Below, one piece after another: positions 23,143 through 31,028 of a stretch of DNA of 32,899 nucleotides (within the stretch, counting starts at the first letter, position 1; each line of letters opens with the position of its first letter). The notes under the pieces were generated by a model. It had not been told where the DNA came from and ran no database searches. It was given only the letters and a program-made list of their open reading frames with translations. The stretch comes from Rubrivivax sp. (lineage in GTDB: Bacteria; Pseudomonadota; Gammaproteobacteria; Burkholderiales; Burkholderiaceae_C). A program made the position numbers and the translations under genes. The DNA lies in assembly GCA_020848515.1 (NCBI GenBank), contig JADLIA010000068.1, positions 1 to 32,899 on the forward strand. The letters run 5' to 3'.

Positions 23143-25815
23143 TCAGAGACGCAGGCCCAGCGCCACCACGGTGCTGGCCGGCTTGGCGCGCCGCGGCTTG
23201 CGCGCGCTGGCGCCCGGGCGCGGCGCCGCAGGCGAGGGGGCTGCTTCAGCCACGCGCTGCTGGATATGGGCCAGCGCCTCTTCCACCTGGTCGATCAGGA
23301 TCAGGCACAGACCGCCAGGCTGGAGTCGGCCCAGCGCGCGGTCGATGGCCTTGAATTCGCCACGGATTTCCTCCACGTGCCGGGTGCGTGTGGCGCCTTC
23401 CAGACCCTGGCGCAGCAGCGCCAGCACCTCGCCGTCCTGCCGGCCACGCTGGCAGGCGTCCTGGTAGAGGATGACGTCGTCAAAGGCGGCCCCCAGCAGG
23501 CGGGTCTGACCGCGGATGTCTTCGTCGCGGCGATCGCCTGCGCCGCTGATCACCACCGAGCGGCGGCTGGCCGGCATGTTCTGCACGCCGGCCACCAGGG
23601 CAGCGATGGCGTCCGGGTTGTGGCCGTAGTCGGCGATCAGGGTGGCGCCGCGGTAGTCGAACACGTTGAAGCGGCCGGGCACACCGTGCAGGTCGCTGAT
23701 GAAGCTCGCCAGGCCTTTCTGGATGGCGTCCCAGGACACACCCAGCGCCCAGGCCGCCGCCACCGAGGCCATGCAGTTTTCGACCTGGAAGCCGATCTGC
23801 CCCTTGCGGGTCAGCGGCACACGCGACAAGGGCAGGCGGCGCAGGCTGTCGCCTTCGGCGCAGACGATGTCGCCGCGGTCGACGAACACCACCCGCTTGC
23901 CCTGGGCCCGGTGCGTGGCGATGACCGGGTGGTGGCCGTCCAGGGCAAAGTAGGTCACCTGACCGGGGCAGTGCGGCGCCATCGCCACCACCGCCGGGTC
24001 GGCGGCGTTGAGCACCGCGGTGCCGGTGGGCGCGACGTTGAGCACGATCACGCGCTTGAGCACCTTCAGGTCTTCCAGCGTGGTGATGTAGTTCAGGCCC
24101 AGGTGATCGCCGCCGCCCAGGTTGGTGACGATGGCGACGTCGCACTGATCGAAGGCCAGGCCTTCGCGCAGCATGCCGCCGCGCGCGGTTTCCAGCACGG
24201 CGGCATCGACATCGGGGTGGGCCAGCACGTTGCGCGCGCTGCGCGGTCCGGAGCAGTCGCCGGAGTCGATCTGCCGGCCATTGACGTAGACGCCGTCGGT
24301 GTTGGTCATGCCCACCCGCAGACCGCTGGTCTTGAGCAGGTGCGCGGCCAGGCGCACGGTGGTGGTCTTGCCGTTGGTGCCGGTGACGGCGATCACCGGG
24401 ATGCGGCCATTGCCACCGTCAGGGAACATGTGGTCGATCACCGCCTGGCCGACGTCGCGGCCCTTGCCGTAGGACGGGCTCAGGTGCATGCGCAGGCCGG
24501 GCGCGGCGTTGACTTCGACGATGCCGCCGTTCTGCTCTTCCAGTGGCTTGATGACCGTCTCGCACACCACGTCGACGCCGCAGATGTCCAGGCCCACGGT
24601 CTGTGCGGCCTCGATGGCCCGCGCCGCCACCAGGGGGTGGACGCTGTCGGTCACGTCGGTGGCGGTGCCGCCGGTGGACAGGTTGGCGTTGTTGCGCATC
24701 ACCACGCGCTGACCTTTGGTGGGCACGCTGTCGGGCGTCAGGCCCTGGGCCGCCAGGCGAGCCTCGGCGATGGCGTCGATGCGGATCCTGGTCAGCGAGG
24801 TGCCGTGACCTTCGCCACGGCGCGGATCCTTGTTGACTTCGGCCACCAGTTCGCGCACCGTGTGTTCACCGTCACCGACCACCAGCGGCGGCTCGCGGCG
24901 CGCTGCCGCCACCAACTGGTTGCCTACCACCAGCAGCCGGAAATCATGGCCGGGCAGAAAGCGCTCGACCATCACCGTGCCGTACTGGGCCGCGGCCTGG
25001 TAGGCGATGTCGAAGTGCTCGCGATCAAGGATGCCGACGGTCACTCCCTTGCCCTGGTTGCCATCCTGGGGTTTGACCACCACCGGCAGGCCGATCTCCT
25101 GCGCGGCTGCCCAGGCGTCCTGCAGATCGCTGACCGGGCGGCCCAGGGGCACGGGCACGCCGGCGGCGTGCAGCAGCTTTTTGGTCAGGTCCTTGTCCTG
25201 GGCAATCGATTCGGCAATCGCGCTGGTGCCGTCGACTTCGGCCGCCTGGATGCGCCGCTGGCGACTGCCCCAGCCCAGCTGCACCAGACTGCCGCGCGTC
25301 AGCCGCTTGAACGGGATGCCACGCCGCACGGCGGCGTCGACGATGGCGCCGGTCGAAGGGCCCAGGCGCTCGTCTTCGTCGAGTTCGCGCAGTTCGGCCA
25401 GGGCGGCGCCGACATCGAACTGGCCGCCTTCAGCTGCGGCGCGGCACAGCAGCTGGGCCTTGTCGAAGGCCAGGCGGCCCACGGCTTCTTCGGTGTACTG
25501 GACGGCAACCTGGTACGTGCCTTCGATTTCGGTCGGTGTGGTGCGGCTGAACGTGACCGGGCAACCCGCCTGAGCCTGCAGGGCCAGGGTCACCAGCTCC
25601 AGCGCGTGGGCCATGGACAGGGGCGTGCTGGGCGCCGCGGGCTGGTTGACCTGAAGCGTGCCTACATGGGGAAACAGCTCACGCAGGCGTTGTTCGAAGG
25701 TGGGCTGTTGGTGCAGGTCGCGCTCGGCTGCGTCGCAGGTGACCACGGCCTCGATGGCCGTGTGGCGGCTCCACAGGTTGGGGCCGCGCAGCGCGCGAAT
25801 GCGGGTGATTTCCAT
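23143..25815 (-). CDS. cphA: Cyanophycin synthetase CphA
   Basis: An 890-residue two-ligase enzyme that builds cyanophycin, the poly-aspartate backbone with arginine side chains used as a nitrogen and carbon store. The N domain spans about 1-160 (starting MEITRIRALRGPNLWSRHTA). The ATP-grasp domain that adds Asp spans about 210-470 (PVVVKPQDGNQGKGVTV, EVNAAPGLRMHLSPSYG). The Mur-ligase-like part that adds Arg starts with an intact P-loop GTNGKTTT at 479-486, followed by ARGGMLREGLAFDQCDVAIV and a full C-terminal domain (GVPGRFNVFDYRG, ADYGHNPDAIAAL). The HxxEHxxxE motif that makes primers in some cyanobacterial enzymes is not intact here (HALELVTLA), so it is predicted to need primer. It lies 50 bases after CphA' in the same operon. 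Confidence 0.96.
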   Translation of the reverse strand: MEITRIRALRGPNLWSRHTAIEAVVTCDAAERDLHQQPTFEQRLRELFPHVGTLQVNQPAAPSTPLSMAHALELVTLALQAQAGCPVTFSRTTPTEIEGTYQVAVQYTEEAVGRLAFDKAQLLCRAAAEGGQFDVGAALAELRELDEDERLGPSTGAIVDAAVRRGIPFKRLTRGSLVQLGWGSRQRRIQAAEVDGTSAIAESIAQDKDLTKKLLHAAGVPVPLGRPVSDLQDAWAAAQEIGLPVVVKPQDGNQGKGVTVGILDREHFDIAYQAAAQYGTVMVERFLPGHDFRLLVVGNQLVAAARREPPLVVGDGEHTVRELVAEVNKDPRRGEGHGTSLTRIRIDAIAEARLAAQGLTPDSVPTKGQRVVMRNNANLSTGGTATDVTDSVHPLVAARAIEAAQTVGLDICGVDVVCETVIKPLEEQNGGIVEVNAAPGLRMHLSPSYGKGRDVGQAVIDHMFPDGGNGRIPVIAVTGTNGKTTTVRLAAHLLKTSGLRVGMTNTDGVYVNGRQIDSGDCSGPRSARNVLAHPDVDAAVLETARGGMLREGLAFDQCDVAIVTNLGGGDHLGLNYITTLEDLKVLKRVIVLNVAPTGTAVLNAADPAVVAMAPHCPGQVTYFALDGHHPVIATHRAQGKRVVFVDRGDIVCAEGDSLRRLPLSRVPLTRKGQIGFQVENCMASVAAAWALGVSWDAIQKGLASFISDLHGVPGRFNVFDYRGATLIADYGHNPDAIAALVAGVQNMPASRRSVVISGAGDRRDEDIRGQTRLLGAAFDDVILYQDACQRGRQDGEVLALLRQGLEGATRTRHVEEIRGEFKAIDRALGRLQPGGLCLILIDQVEEALAHIQQRVAEAAPSPAAPRPGASARKPRRAKPASTVVALGLRL

Positions 25816-25865: not shown

Positions 25866-28163
25866 TCAGTGGACAGCGCCGGCCGGTGCCGCTTCACAAA
25901 AGTGCAACAAACCGGCACGGATCAGCTCCACCGGCACGCCCAGCGACCAGGCCGTGGCGACGGCCGCCAGCACATGCGGGCGCACGTCGGCCGGCGGTTC
26001 CTGGGCGATGGCGGAAAACTCGGGCGCCGACAGGTTGACCAGCGCAAACTCCTCCGGGCCTTGCGCCAGCACGATGCGATCGCCGCGGGCCAGGGCGACG
26101 CGGCCCTTGCGCGCGCGGTGCGCCTTCAAGGCCGGGCTCTGCGGGTCGAGGCTGTAGAGCAGCACTTCGCCGTCGGCGTAGTCGGCCAGCGCCAGCACTT
26201 CGGCGTCGTCGGCGTTCAGCACCGCCGCCCCTTCGGGCAGCACCACGTCGACCTGGGTGCGCACGATGTTGGGCATCTGGTCGGCCTCGGTGATGTACAG
26301 ATCCTCCAGGCCCTGCGGCCCGGGCATGCACATGACCACACCGACCTGGCAGCGGTCGTAGGGCAGGCCTTCGGTCAGGATGTGGCGCGGCGAGGTTTCG
26401 AACACGGCGGCCTGCACCGTGCGGTTGATGAGCATCCGCTCACCGATGTCGTAGCCCAGCGCACCGCCGCTCGCCAGCCGGCGCTGGCCGAGGAACAGGC
26501 CATCTCGGCAGCCCAGTGCCGTCTGCAGGCCGTGCAACTGCATCAGGGCGGCGGTCAGGCGCGCCGCCAGCGCGCTTTCGCCGTCGCCGATGATGCCGAC
26601 GATCGGAATGCGCCCGCTGGCTCCGGCGGGGAACAGATGGTTGACGATGGCGTCGCCCACCGGCTGGGCGCGGCCGATGGCCGGTTTGAGGTGCATCAGC
26701 AGGCCGGGCCCGGCGTTGACTTCGACGATCGCGCCGCCCTGCGGAATCAGCGGCTGGCCGATGTCTTCGGCCACCAGGTCGATGCCGGCGATGTCCAGCC
26801 CGACCACGCGGGTGGCCATTGCCACCAGCTCGGCCACGTCGGGGTGCACCTGCCCGGTGACGTCGATCGACATGTTGCCGGTGCGCTGCACCTCCGCCGA
26901 TTCGCCGCGCGGCAGCACGCTGTCGATGCCCAGGCCCTGGCGCTCCAGCAGCAGCAGCAGCACCGGGTCGTCGTGGCGCAGGGTTTCCAGCGGCAGATGT
27001 TCTTCGACGCCGCGCCGCGGGTCGGTGTTGACGTGGGCGTCGATGAGCTGGCCGATGCTGGAGCGACCATCTCCGCTGACGCGGATGATTTCGCCACGCG
27101 TGGCCGCCACCACCTTGCCACCGACCACCAGCAGCCGGTGCTCCTGGCCGGGAATGAAGCGCTCGACGATCACTTCGGAGCCTTCCTGTTCGGCGGCGGC
27201 GAAGGCGCGCACGACCTCGTCGCGTGTCTTGAGGTTCAGCGACACGCCGCGCGCATGGTTGCCGTCCGACGGCTTGACGGCCACGGGCAGGCCGATGTCC
27301 TCGGCGGCGTCCCAGGCGTCGTCGGCACTGCTGACGGTGCGGCCCTCGGGCACCGGCACGCCGGCGGCCGCCAGCAGCTGCTTGGTCAGGTCCTTGTCGC
27401 TCGCAATGCCTTCGGCGATGGCGCTGGTGCGGTCGGTTTCGGCGGTCCAGATGCGGTGTTGCGCGGCGCCGTGGCCGAGCTGCACCAGGTTGCCGTCGTT
27501 GAGCCGGATGTTGGGAATGCCGCGTTCCACCGCGGCGTCGACGATGCAGGCCGTGCTGGGCCCCAGGCACTGGCGATCGACCATCTCGGTCAGTCGGGCG
27601 ATGGTGGCGGCGACGTCGTAGGGGCGGTCGTTGATGGCCGCCATCACCAGATCGCGCGCCGAGGTGATGGCCAGCCTGCCGACGGCTTCGTGACGGGTGC
27701 GGATGACCACCTTGTAGACGCCACGCTCGTGCGTCATGCGGGCCTTGCCGAAGCCGGTCTTCATGCCGGCCTGGGTCTGCAGTTCGAGCGCCACGTGCTC
27801 CAGGATGTGGCCCGGCCAGGTGCCGTCGCGCAGGCGCATCAGAAAGCCCCCGCGACGGCCGACGCTGCAGCGGTGCTCGATCAGACCGGGCAGCCAGGCC
27901 GTCAGGCGGTCGTAAAAGCCGGGCAGGGTGTTGGAGGGGAAGTCTTCCAGTTCGCCGATGTCGACGATGGCCTCGATCACCGCGCGGTAGGTCCAGATGT
28001 TGGGGCCGCGCAGATGCGCCATGCGGCGGATGATGATGTCGGCGAACTGGCGATCGGGCGGTGCGGCCGACGCCGGCGCCAGTTCGGCGGCGGCTTGTGG
28101 GGCGCGGACATACAATCCGCCACCGTTTGCCGAGCCGTGTTCGTGTTGATCGATTCGCCTCAT
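25866..28163 (-). CDS. CphA-like paralogue (CphA'), Mur-ligase half degenerate
   Basis: About 765 residues, related to CphA over most of its length. The N domain is close to the cyanobacterial form: LRGPNIWTYR, NTLPGFYDRL and GTWPGHILEHVALELQ with the HxxEHxxxE motif at 119-127. The ATP-grasp half is kept (PVAVKPSDGNHARGVSL, EVNAGPGLLMHLKPA), although the loop matching CphA LSTGGTATDV is shortened. The Mur-ligase P-loop is replaced by GIIGDGES (523-530), and the protein ends where the C-terminal Mur domain would begin. The Arg-adding reaction should be lost. The layout recalls cyanobacterial CphA2, which polymerises beta-Asp-Arg dipeptides with one ATP site. The ORF track starts at 28376 inside the divergent gene. 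ATG 28163 is the longest start that clears it; Met48 (28022) is possible. The reading frame is intact, so it is not a decaying pseudogene. Confidence 0.9.
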   Translation of the reverse strand: MRRIDQHEHGSANGGGLYVRAPQAAAELAPASAAPPDRQFADIIIRRMAHLRGPNIWTYRAVIEAIVDIGELEDFPSNTLPGFYDRLTAWLPGLIEHRCSVGRRGGFLMRLRDGTWPGHILEHVALELQTQAGMKTGFGKARMTHERGVYKVVIRTRHEAVGRLAITSARDLVMAAINDRPYDVAATIARLTEMVDRQCLGPSTACIVDAAVERGIPNIRLNDGNLVQLGHGAAQHRIWTAETDRTSAIAEGIASDKDLTKQLLAAAGVPVPEGRTVSSADDAWDAAEDIGLPVAVKPSDGNHARGVSLNLKTRDEVVRAFAAAEQEGSEVIVERFIPGQEHRLLVVGGKVVAATRGEIIRVSGDGRSSIGQLIDAHVNTDPRRGVEEHLPLETLRHDDPVLLLLLERQGLGIDSVLPRGESAEVQRTGNMSIDVTGQVHPDVAELVAMATRVVGLDIAGIDLVAEDIGQPLIPQGGAIVEVNAGPGLLMHLKPAIGRAQPVGDAIVNHLFPAGASGRIPIVGIIGDGESALAARLTAALMQLHGLQTALGCRDGLFLGQRRLASGGALGYDIGERMLINRTVQAAVFETSPRHILTEGLPYDRCQVGVVMCMPGPQGLEDLYITEADQMPNIVRTQVDVVLPEGAAVLNADDAEVLALADYADGEVLLYSLDPQSPALKAHRARKGRVALARGDRIVLAQGPEEFALVNLSAPEFSAIAQEPPADVRPHVLAAVATAWSLGVPVELIRAGLLHFCEAAPAGAVH

Positions 28164-28212
28164 GGGGCCCTGCGCTCGCTTTCCGTGTTTCGTTGCTGTC
28201 TGAAGGGCTGCC
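28164..28212. promoter_or_regulatory. Divergent region, CphA' / ABC exporter
   Basis: Only 49 bases separate the two start codons. AAGGG at 28203-28207 serves the plus-strand TTG start. A TACAAT -10-like hexamer at 28111-28116 on the plus strand lies inside the start of CphA', so the exporter transcript may begin within the CphA' gene. No clear hexamers are seen for the minus strand. Confidence 0.4.
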
Positions 28213-30561
28213 TTGCCGGAACCCACGTCGTCCGATCCCCGCCTGGCCATGCCGGCGGGTGACCCCGCGCCTGCCATCGAAGAGGCGCCACCCCTGCGAC
28301 CCACAGAAAACGTGCTGGGCTCGCTGGACGTTGACCTGACGCGCCAGCTGCGCTTTGGGCGCGGGGTGATTCTCATTACAGATCAACGGCTTGTCACGCG
28401 GTTTCCGGATGCAACCGGCTGGCAGGCCTGGGACTTGCACCCCGGGCTGTCGCTGGCGCACCACGACCACGCCGGGGTGGGCACGCTGGAGCTGCACGAC
28501 GCGCAGGGAAGGCTGGCGGTCTGGCGCTACACCCTGGGGCACAACCCGGCGGCGCTGCGCCTGCTGGGGCAGTTCGAGCGCGCCCGTGAGGCGCTGGCCG
28601 GCGGCGCGCCGTCGGCCAGCGAGGACGTCGCCCCGGCCGACCAGGCCGAGGATGAAGAGGGCGTGCCCGACCAGCCGCCGTCCACCTGGACCCTGCTGCG
28701 CCTGTGGCGCTTTGCCAGGCCCTACCAGTGGCAGCTGCTGGCCGGTTTCGTGCTGATGCTGGCGGCCACCGCCGCCACCCTGGTGCCGCCCTACCTGACC
28801 ATGCCGCTGATGGACAAGGTGCTGATCCCGTTCCAGAGCGGCCAGCAGATCGACACCGGCTACGTCGCGCTGCTGCTGACCGGCCTGCTGGGGTCGGCCT
28901 TGCTGGCGTGGGGCCTGGGCTGGGCCAAGACCTACATCCTGGCGCTGGTGTCCGAGCGCATCGGTGCCGACCTGCGGACAATCACTTACGAACACCTGCT
29001 CAAACTTTCACTTGAATATTTCGGTGGCCGGCGCACGGGAGACCTGATGGCGCGCATCGGTTCGGAAACCGACCGCATCAACATTTTTCTGTCGCTGCAC
29101 CTGCTGGACTTCGCCACCGACGTGCTGATGATCGCCATGACGGCGGCGATCCTGTTTTCCATCGACCCGACGCTGGCGCTGGTGACCCTGGTGCCGCTGC
29201 CGATCATTGCGTGGCTGATCCACGTGGTGCGCGACCGCCTGCGCACCGGCTTCGAGAAGATCGACCGCGTCTGGTCGGAAGTCACCAACGTGCTGGCCGA
29301 CACCATTCCGGGTATCCGCGTGGTCAAGGCCTTCGCCCAGGAAGACCGCGAAGCGAGTCGCTTTCGCGATGCCAACCGCCACAACCTGGCCGTCAACGAC
29401 CGCCTGAACCGCCTGTGGTCGCTGTTTTCGCCCACCGTCACGTTGCTGACCGAAATCGGGCTGCTGATCGTCTGGGCCGCCGGCATCTGGCTGGTCAGCC
29501 AGCAGCGCGTCACGGTGGGGGTGCTGACGGCGTTTCTGGCTTACATCGGGCGCTTCTACACCCGGCTCGATTCGATGAGCCGCATCGTCTCGGTGACGCA
29601 GAAGGCGGCCTCGGCCACCAAGCGCATCTTTGAAATCCTCGACCATGTCTCCAGCGTGCCGGAGCCGAAAAACCCCGTGCCGCTGCCACGCGTGCAGGGC
29701 CGCATCGACATCCGCAGTGCGGCGCTGCGCTACGGCAACCGCTCGGTGCTGCGCGGCCTGGACCTGCACATCGAACCGGGTCAGATGATCGGCCTGGTGG
29801 GCCACAGCGGCTCCGGCAAGAGCACGCTGGTGAACCTGATCTGCCGCTTCTATGACGTGAGCGAGGGCGCCATCGAAGTCGATGGCGTGGACCTGCGGCA
29901 GGTGCGGGTGGCCGACTGGCGCCGCCACATCGGCCTGGTGCTGCAGGAGCCCTACCTGTTTTTCGGCACCATCGCCGAGAACATCGCCTACGGCAAGCCC
30001 GACGCCACGCGCGAGGAGATCGTGGCCGCCGCGCGCGCCGCCCACGCGCACGAGTTCATCCTGCGGCTGCCGCAGGGCTACGACTCGCTGGTGGGCGAGC
30101 GCGGCCAGGGGCTGTCGGGCGGCGAGCGCCAGCGCATCAGCATCGCCCGCGCGCTGCTGATCGACCCCAAGATCCTGATCCTGGATGAGGCCACGGCCTC
30201 GGTCGACACCGAAACCGAACGCGAGATCCAGAAGGCGCTGGACAACCTGGTGCGTGGGCGCACGACGATTGCCATCGCGCACCGCCTGTCCACGCTGCGC
30301 AAGGCCGACCGGCTGGTGGTGATGGACAAGGGCGTGAAGGTCGAGGAGGGCACGCACGAAGTGCTGCTGGGGCGCCGCGGCGCCTACTGGCGCCTGTACG
30401 AGGCGCAGGCGCGGCAGGAGAAGGCCGAGCGCGAGCGCATGCTGGTGGTCGACGATGCCGTGCTGGCCGGTGAGCCGACGGCGGTGCCCGCCATTGCCAC
30501 GCCGACGCACCGCGGCGACGTCAGCACGGCCGAGGCCCGGCGCCAGGAGTCCCAGCCATGA
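28213..30561 (+). CDS. ABC exporter associated with cyanophycin genes, with an N-terminal extra domain
   Basis: A 782-residue fused half-transporter of the ABCB/exporter type in the inner membrane. Residues about 30-130 form an extra soluble domain (GRGVILITDQRLVTRF, HAGVGTLELHDAQGRLAVW) that reads like a small beta-sandwich of bacterial PH type. Six membrane helices follow from about 165 to 440. The ATPase domain has Walker A GHSGSGKST, signature LSGGERQ (634-640), Walker B ILILDEAT and H-loop AHRLS, all intact. I recall that such proteins are named cyanophycin metabolism-associated ABC transporters from gene context; substrate and direction are unknown. TTG 28213 has AAGGG at good spacing; ATG 28249 has no ribosome site. 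It overlaps the DUF1854 gene by ATGA. Confidence 0.92.
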   Translation: MPEPTSSDPRLAMPAGDPAPAIEEAPPLRPTENVLGSLDVDLTRQLRFGRGVILITDQRLVTRFPDATGWQAWDLHPGLSLAHHDHAGVGTLELHDAQGRLAVWRYTLGHNPAALRLLGQFERAREALAGGAPSASEDVAPADQAEDEEGVPDQPPSTWTLLRLWRFARPYQWQLLAGFVLMLAATAATLVPPYLTMPLMDKVLIPFQSGQQIDTGYVALLLTGLLGSALLAWGLGWAKTYILALVSERIGADLRTITYEHLLKLSLEYFGGRRTGDLMARIGSETDRINIFLSLHLLDFATDVLMIAMTAAILFSIDPTLALVTLVPLPIIAWLIHVVRDRLRTGFEKIDRVWSEVTNVLADTIPGIRVVKAFAQEDREASRFRDANRHNLAVNDRLNRLWSLFSPTVTLLTEIGLLIVWAAGIWLVSQQRVTVGVLTAFLAYIGRFYTRLDSMSRIVSVTQKAASATKRIFEILDHVSSVPEPKNPVPLPRVQGRIDIRSAALRYGNRSVLRGLDLHIEPGQMIGLVGHSGSGKSTLVNLICRFYDVSEGAIEVDGVDLRQVRVADWRRHIGLVLQEPYLFFGTIAENIAYGKPDATREEIVAAARAAHAHEFILRLPQGYDSLVGERGQGLSGGERQRISIARALLIDPKILILDEATASVDTETEREIQKALDNLVRGRTTIAIAHRLSTLRKADRLVVMDKGVKVEEGTHEVLLGRRGAYWRLYEAQARQEKAERERMLVVDDAVLAGEPTAVPAIATPTHRGDVSTAEARRQESQP

Positions 30562-31028
30562 GCGCGCCCGACTTCGATCTGCAGCGCGACGCCTTCGGTC
30601 GCCTGGTGCTGACCGACGCCCAGGGGCATGCGCATGTCGGCGTGGCGGCCGTGCGGGCGTTTCCGATCGGTGCGCCCGACGAAGGGATCAGCCTGGTCGA
30701 TGGCGACGGTCATGAACTGGCCTGGGTGCCGCGGCTCGGCGCATTGGACGAGGACCGTCGCGCCCTGCTGGTCGAGGCGCTGGAGCAGCGCGAGTTCATG
30801 CCGCGTCTGCTGCGCGTGAGGGGCGTGAGCAGTTTCGTGACGCCGAGCACCTGGGAGGTCGACACCGACCGCGGTCCGACCCGCTTCGTGCTCAAGGGTG
30901 AGGAAGACATCCGCCGTCTCGGGCCCGGCCTGCTGATCGTCAACGACGCCCATGGCGTGCAGTACCTGATCCAGGATCTGATGGCCATGGACCGCCACAG
31001 CCGGAAGTTGCTCGACCGCTTCCTCTGA
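30558..31028 (+). CDS. DUF1854 family protein associated with cyanophycin genes
   Basis: A 156-residue soluble protein of the DUF1854 family. It begins MSAPDFDLQRDAFGRLVLTD and holds GVAAVRAFPIGAPDEGISLV, a central VSSFVTPSTWEVDTDRGPTRF and the C-terminal LLIVNDAHGVQYLIQDLMAMD. No signal peptide, membrane helix or known catalytic motif is seen. The start overlaps the exporter stop (ATGA), so the two are translationally coupled and probably form a complex. Family members occur beside cyanophycin synthetase genes, but no function has been shown to my knowledge. It could be a regulatory or coupling subunit of the exporter; that is inference. Confidence 0.9.
   Translation: MSAPDFDLQRDAFGRLVLTDAQGHAHVGVAAVRAFPIGAPDEGISLVDGDGHELAWVPRLGALDEDRRALLVEALEQREFMPRLLRVRGVSSFVTPSTWEVDTDRGPTRFVLKGEEDIRRLGPGLLIVNDAHGVQYLIQDLMAMDRHSRKLLDRFL

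Follow-up and report, generated by a model that had tools for sequence, protein, structure and literature searches.

Two adjacent genes in a 32,899-nt stretch of Rubrivivax sp. DNA (hereafter, the window) appear to share out the three active sites of the cyanophycin synthetase CphA1. Our comparison of many such loci suggests that cphA′ and cphA are a duplicated, subfunctionalized CphA1, in which CphA′ would trim young chains to primers and CphA would elongate them; we consider this reading probable. Tandem cphA genes are themselves known. What appears to be new here is that the three active sites of CphA1 are divided over two genes, with priming assigned to CphA′. The pair and its neighbors lie in the window as follows.

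25866..28376, minus strand: cphA′, longest ORF of 836 aa, with CphA1 homology from about residue 116, i.e., from 28034 down
23143..25815, minus strand: cphA, 890 aa, NF010623 match of 1234 bits, N site lost, G and M sites intact
28213..30561, plus strand: cyanophycin metabolism-associated ABC transporter, NF052233, 1352 bits (cut-off 880)
30558..31028, plus strand: cyanophycin metabolism-associated DUF1854 protein, NF052234, 227 bits (cut-off 150)

The cphA′ product matches NF010623 with 950 bits and consists of an N domain with its site, a G domain without the Asp pocket, and a truncated M domain. The Pfam Cyanophycin_syn N domain scores 126 bits in the window's CphA′ and 39 in its CphA, and the Pfam Mur-ligase M and C domains are matched only in CphA, with none in CphA′. 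Beside cphA′, in divergent orientation, stand the NF052233 transporter and NF052234 DUF1854 genes (28213-31028, plus strand).

The evidence starts with the N domain. In SuCphA1, residues C59, H79, and H83 bind metal, with E82 as the general base; Sharon et al. 2022 showed that cyanophycin is cleaved at this site, chiefly into four-unit pieces that become primers (PMC9262961). The corresponding segments in the window are these.

27783..27875, minus strand: predicted N-domain endo-cyanophycinase site of CphA′, HRCSVGRRGGFLMRLRDGTWPGHILEHVALE, with H57, C59, F67, R70, H79, E82, H83, and E87 (SuCphA1 numbers)
27783..27809, minus strand: HILEHVALE in CphA′, from the translation, on a confidently modeled helix (model residues 79-93)
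25582..25608, minus strand: HALELVTLA in CphA, from the translation, what is left of the N-site helix; upstream of it, the Cys loop is shorter and is disordered in the model

The CphA′ site has the pattern H-x-C-x7-F-x2-R-x8-H-x2-E-H-x3-E (27783-27875, minus strand), with translated codons for H57 at 27873-27875 and for C59 at 27867-27869. Its Cx19HxxEH motif is not a product of chance, because it arose in only 5 of 20000 shuffles of the CphA′ sequence, because the site matches SuCphA1 column for column in the alignment, and because it is invariant in 112/112 loci. The CphA N domain aligns with a shortened metal loop and lacks both the Cys and the second His. Elsewhere in the groove, CphA′ departs from SuCphA1 at E90 (T or N), at S60 (G in many sequences), and at R100 (K or Q); in SuCphA1, R100A is harmless.

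The original prediction had placed HILEHVALE in CphA′ at 27783-27809 and HALELVTLA in CphA at 25582-25608, and translation of the minus strand recovers both exactly there. Its numbering of HILEHVALE as residues 119-127 holds if CphA′ starts at Met 28163, but the longest ORF starts at 28376. It also described HxxEHxxxE as a zinc motif of some cyanobacterial CphA1 enzymes. That motif is indeed kept in CphA′ and present in those enzymes, but the published form is Cx19HxxEH, so that the third metal ligand, a Cys, had been missed, and the site extends to ∼83% of CphA1 (nr70) in all phyla (PMC9262961). With SuCphA1 as the reference, alignment of the two N domains gives the full site to CphA′ and leaves CphA without it. 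The observation on the CphA′ N domain is confirmed, and it is larger than first stated.

Loci came from three sources: the window's family, further families of its order, and a named collection of genomes (Nitrosomonas europaea, Delftia acidovorans, Acidovorax, Comamonas, Massilia, Pseudoduganella, Corticibacter, and a Baikal gammaproteobacterium MAG); genomes may recur in both collections. In the family-level genome search, a full CphA was almost always accompanied by a second match of ∼720 residues directly upstream. The final set holds 112 distinct tandem loci with both genes covered, mostly from Burkholderiales sensu GTDB. Nine further entries (L092-L100) end before the CphA′ N domain, and the same genomes were entered as whole loci instead. 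Because all of these pairs descend from one or few duplications, they are not 112 independent events. At 112/112 loci cphA′ comes first and on the same strand as cphA, with a median gap of 42 nt. All eight N-site residues are kept in 112/112 paired CphA′ and are also invariant in families across the order, and Cx19HxxEH occurs in 0/113 CphA-type sequences. A seeming CphA with the motif, at L054, was rejected as a chance spacing outside the site.

As controls we took 58 CphA1 sequences from outside the paired clades, from Bacteroidota, Cyanobacteriota, Actinomycetota, Bacillota, Acidobacteriota, and other Pseudomonadota. The N site sits in the same protein as the G and M sites in 52 of them; it is absent from 6/58, one of which is merely cut off at its N terminus. 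Three loci of the window's order that have a single CphA1 of an unrelated type (L107, L111, and L112) keep the N site. Besides its tandem pair (L104), genome G205 carries two more, divergent CphA copies whose N sites are altered (YVFRREHG and QA-REEPE); these two copies adjoin each other on opposite strands. The second “cphA” of Tetrasphaera/Terrabacter was rejected as another CphA′, since it is encoded on the opposite strand and consists of a Mur ligase alone (L175 and L178). The opposite-strand, Mur-ligase-only neighbor found in the actinomycetotal loci L175, L178, and L201 is probably the Tetrasphaera “second cphA copy” of PMC10687191.

The G and M domains are distributed the other way around, as the following positions indicate.

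27093..27095, minus strand: CphA′ Gly at the R323 position (Asp side-chain binding), from the alignment
26868..26876, minus strand: place of the G-domain loop missing in CphA′ (SuCphA1 395-398, N[LM]STGG; contains S396), from the alignment
26697..26699, minus strand: CphA′ Leu at the R458 position (Asp alpha-carboxylate binding), from the alignment
26571..26591, minus strand: degenerate M-domain P-loop IGDGESA in CphA′ (CphA1 has TGTNGKT); CphA′ has no C-terminal Mur-ligase lobe either
24361..24381, minus strand: intact M-domain P-loop GTNGKTT in CphA, from the alignment
25054..25056, minus strand: CphA Gln at the H267 position; Q267 also occurs in one-protein CphA1s with all sites

In characterized enzymes, mutating R323, N394, or R458 impairs activity and S396W abolishes it (PMC9427784). 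Position 323 is G in 109/112 CphA′ and R in 113/113 CphA, and position 458 is L in 110/112 CphA′ and R in 113/113 CphA. The STGG loop is found in every CphA and in 0/112 CphA′, residues 395-398 being deleted in the 59 family-level CphA′. Adames and colleagues are said to have noted that the CphA′ of Cupriavidus necator H16 is missing a loop (the J-loop). The M P-loop of CphA′ is degenerate in nearly all loci and the C-terminal lobe is gone in most; at D585 and H586 the window's CphA′ has Q and G. Held against a complete CphA1, this protein shows R323G, the deletion of 395-398, and R458L, and its M P-loop, DH motif, and C lobe are gone. In its G domain (25869-28049, minus strand), the ATP-grasp ATP/Mg and acyl-phosphate residues are invariant despite the loss of the Asp pocket. 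Two residues of the CphA′ M fragment, R603 and D607, are invariant in 112/112 although the M ATPase is gone; in SuCphA1, residues 603 and 607 of the M domain lie beside the N groove, where they contact the polymer at the N site.

The window's CphA has all of the G-pocket and M-site residues except H267, which is Q. Among the 113 CphA the G pocket is intact, and the M P-loop and D585/H586 are intact in nearly all; H267 is replaced by Q in 110/113 CphA and kept in 106/112 CphA′. The idea that Q267 marks a dead G site in CphA, with CphA′ adding Asp in its stead, was rejected, as Q267 is present in complete one-protein CphA1s and the Asp pocket of CphA′ is lost.

CphA′ had been called ligase-crippled, which is right for the Asp pocket and the M site, both clearly lost, but not for the ATP site of the G domain, which is kept. 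Its ATP and Mg residues K220, K261, R309, D431, E450, and N452 are invariant in 112/112, a signature that leaves room for ATP binding, or for a different acceptor, in the CphA′ G domain. Conceivably, CphA′ acts mainly through this domain, as an ATP-grasp ligase whose remodeled acceptor pocket would take a substrate different from Asp (for example a dipeptide, the CphA2 substrate, or a cap), the N site being accessory. In its favor stand the six invariant residues and the H267 of 106 sequences, alongside the lost R323, 395-398 loop, and R458. However, a cyanobacterial CphA2-like protein (L244, Lyngbya genome) has no N motif and retains both R323 and the loop (NLSAGG), the reverse of CphA′, and in the window's genus constraint on CphA′ is stronger in the N domain than in the G domain. 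We regard a primarily ligating CphA′ as improbable.

Structure models agree with the assignment of the N site to CphA′. The CphA′ model (727 residues, pLDDT 92, pTM 0.89) has H81, E84, H85, and E89 in a single helix (79-93) and C61 in a loop modeled with confidence, an arrangement shared with SuCphA1. Among PDB entries it matches 7txv best, SuCphA1 E82Q with cyanophycin (TM 0.87 by query length), and there is no solved CphA′-type structure among its PDB matches. The N domain is modeled confidently, and its predicted fold resembles that of the primer-making SuCphA1. In the CphA model, the segment in place of the Cys loop (57-62) falls below pLDDT 50. Pseudoenzyme partners are common in other systems, and with two of its three active sites damaged, CphA′ could be pictured as a non-catalytic scaffold or regulator of CphA that keeps its N residues for structural zinc or chain binding. 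Yet the general base E82 is invariant in 112/112, and a purely structural zinc site would not need it; such a role is very unlikely.

The history of the pair is also consistent with a division of labor. In a G-domain tree, computed by a short search with the deletion loop left out and rooted for drawing only, all CphA′ fall in one clade (SH-aLRT 97) that groups with the tandem CphA (97). L177, a one-protein CphA1 that stands at the base of the CphA branch, is the nearest such relative; it retains all three sites, and its genome carries no CphA′. An apparent gap in the L177 N site was an alignment artefact, the raw sequence having EHRCSIGERGGFFERLRTGTWMGHVLEHVTLE. At four loci (L101, L102, L105, and L106) CphA′ retains an intact M P-loop and DH motif with the Asp pocket already gone, and these are apparent intermediates of the split. 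Because M is intact in these four pocketless CphA′, the core of the split is N site versus Asp-adding G site, and CphA′ lost its M site later, perhaps several times. An Akkermansiaceae MAG (Verrucomicrobiota; genome of L220; loci L234, L237, and L239) has a CphA without the N site and a CphA′ with it, on separate contigs. The same MAG has a second, decayed CphA′ whose own N site is broken.

Selection mirrors this division. Since dN/dS across 3344 distant pairs was near saturation, those values were set aside and same-genus values were used. For the N, G, and M domains, comparison of three genomes from the window's genus gives dN/dS of 0.09-0.14, 0.17-0.26, and 0.25-0.30 in CphA′ and 0.16-0.23, 0.11-0.13, and 0.09-0.17 in CphA. 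Constraint within this genus is strongest on the N domain in CphA′ and weakest on the N domain in CphA. Mean pairwise identity over all loci is 62, 66, and 48% for N, G, and M of CphA′ and 58, 72, and 70% for CphA; at this range the CphA′ N domain is far better kept than the CphA′ M domain. These data bear on the view that CphA is a primer-dependent CphA1, like that of Tatumella morbirosei (TmCphA1), which uses left-over chains, and that CphA′ is decaying. A primer-dependent CphA1 acting alone has been reported (Tatumella; PMC9262961), and the six control sequences without the N site, one through its cut-off N terminus, could be counted with it. But CphA′ is retained, purifying selection on it is strongest on the N domain, and its site is invariant across families of the order. 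We give decay next to no credence.

Published biochemistry shows what a divided enzyme could do. TmCphA1 has none of the four site residues and needs primer, and it becomes primer-independent in trans with SuCphA1 whose G and M sites are dead or with the N domain alone; heterodimers of N-minus/G+M+ with N+/G-M- SuCphA1 also function (PMC9262961). The trans-complementation by SuCphA1 makes a split over two proteins biochemically possible. A primer maker is helpful, not essential, because primer-dependent enzymes still yield polymer in E. coli (PMC9262961 Table 1).

The same N-site chemistry might serve degradation, CphA′ being an endo-cyanophycinase that mobilizes stored polymer and was split off for separate regulation. 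By counts that cover TIGR02069 only, a cyanophycinase scores above cut-off in only 14/58 pair-bearing family genomes (44/58 have none), and none was found in the window's MAG (G000), which is 77% complete; a 2016 paper likewise states that cyanophycinase genes had not been detected in Betaproteobacteria (PMC5178258). The position of cphA′, a median of 42 nt upstream of cphA, points instead to co-expression with synthesis, and N-domain cleavage is slow and yields mainly 4-mers, which fits priming (PMC9262961). A degradative role is therefore unlikely in our estimation.

We favor subfunctionalization of CphA1 because the sites have been lost in complementary fashion over 112 loci, and because gene order, spacing, clade, and fold all agree with it. 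In the proposed scheme, the zinc-dependent N site of CphA′ would bind young cyanophycin and cut it to pieces of about four units, and CphA would elongate these pieces, its G site adding Asp and its M site Arg. The scheme supposes that CphA′ binds zinc and cleaves, that CphA takes the products as primers, and that both proteins work together or in one hetero-oligomer. The original prediction of a division of priming and elongation is thus supported as a hypothesis, by comparison, through the 112 loci, the mirrored constraint, the model, and the published trans-complementation. Against it stand the intact G-domain ATP site of CphA′, which priming alone would not need, the groove residues that depart from SuCphA1, the polymer that primer-dependent enzymes still yield in E. 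coli, and the reported lack of cyanophycin in Cupriavidus necator H16. A bolder version, which we hold to be rather unlikely, is an obligate CphA′/CphA hetero-oligomer in which CphA′ would trim chains held by CphA and its ATP-grasp site would perform a further ligation (making the initial short primer, for example, or capping chains); the pair would then be an initiator-elongator machine of two subunits that builds a non-ribosomal polyamide.

A division of this kind would matter in several ways. First, the full primer motif is missing from ∼17% of CphA1 (nr70), which have been taken to be primer-dependent (PMC9262961); in the Burkholderiales share of these, the N site would not have been lost but moved to the neighboring gene. 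Second, the split would explain why a seemingly crippled second synthetase is retained, and it suggests that results from one gene expressed by itself may mislead. Third, cyanophycin production would gain a natural means of tuning elongation independently of primer supply. Finally, it would be a clean example of duplicated genes losing complementary active sites, one in which living intermediates remain.

Earlier work had already recorded tandem cphA/cphA′ genes (Fuser and Steinbuchel 2007, as cited in PMC10687191), and adjacent cphA genes also appear in PMC5178258 and in Adames 2013 (as cited in PMC11362209 and PMC8560796). The earlier remark that the division had not been seen described holds for the open literature searched: there we found no report giving a primer site or priming role to one tandem copy. 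The Cupriavidus necator H16 CphA/CphA′ pair (Adames 2013) consists of two adjacent cphA homologues, as in the window; it was studied before the N site was known, and the open literature searched assigns it no priming role. According to the citations of that work in PMC11362209 and PMC8560796, no cyanophycin was found in C. necator H16, either as wild type or when expressing its two genes.

It is useful to contrast the pair with enzymes of known structure. CphA2 (7ta5, 8fxh, and 8fxi) is shorter and without a working M ATPase, as is CphA′. Unlike CphA′, it has no N site, and one relative (L244) keeps R323 and the Asp-side loop. An identification of CphA′ with CphA2 was rejected, as CphA′ has the N motif and no G loop, the reverse of L244. 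Tatumella morbirosei CphA1 (7lgn) is without the N site, like the window's CphA; it was reported to act alone and to need added primer, and it is not known to have a CphA′. SuCphA1 (Synechocystis sp. UTEX2470; 7lg5, 7txu, and 7txv) has the same fold, and CphA′ shares its N-site residues and CphA its G-pocket and M-site residues. In SuCphA1, however, the three sites lie in one protein; in the window they are spread over two genes. The closest parallel in site distribution is the engineered SuCphA1 heterodimer N-G+M+/N+G-M- (PMC9262961), which was made by mutation, whereas the arrangement described here is natural.
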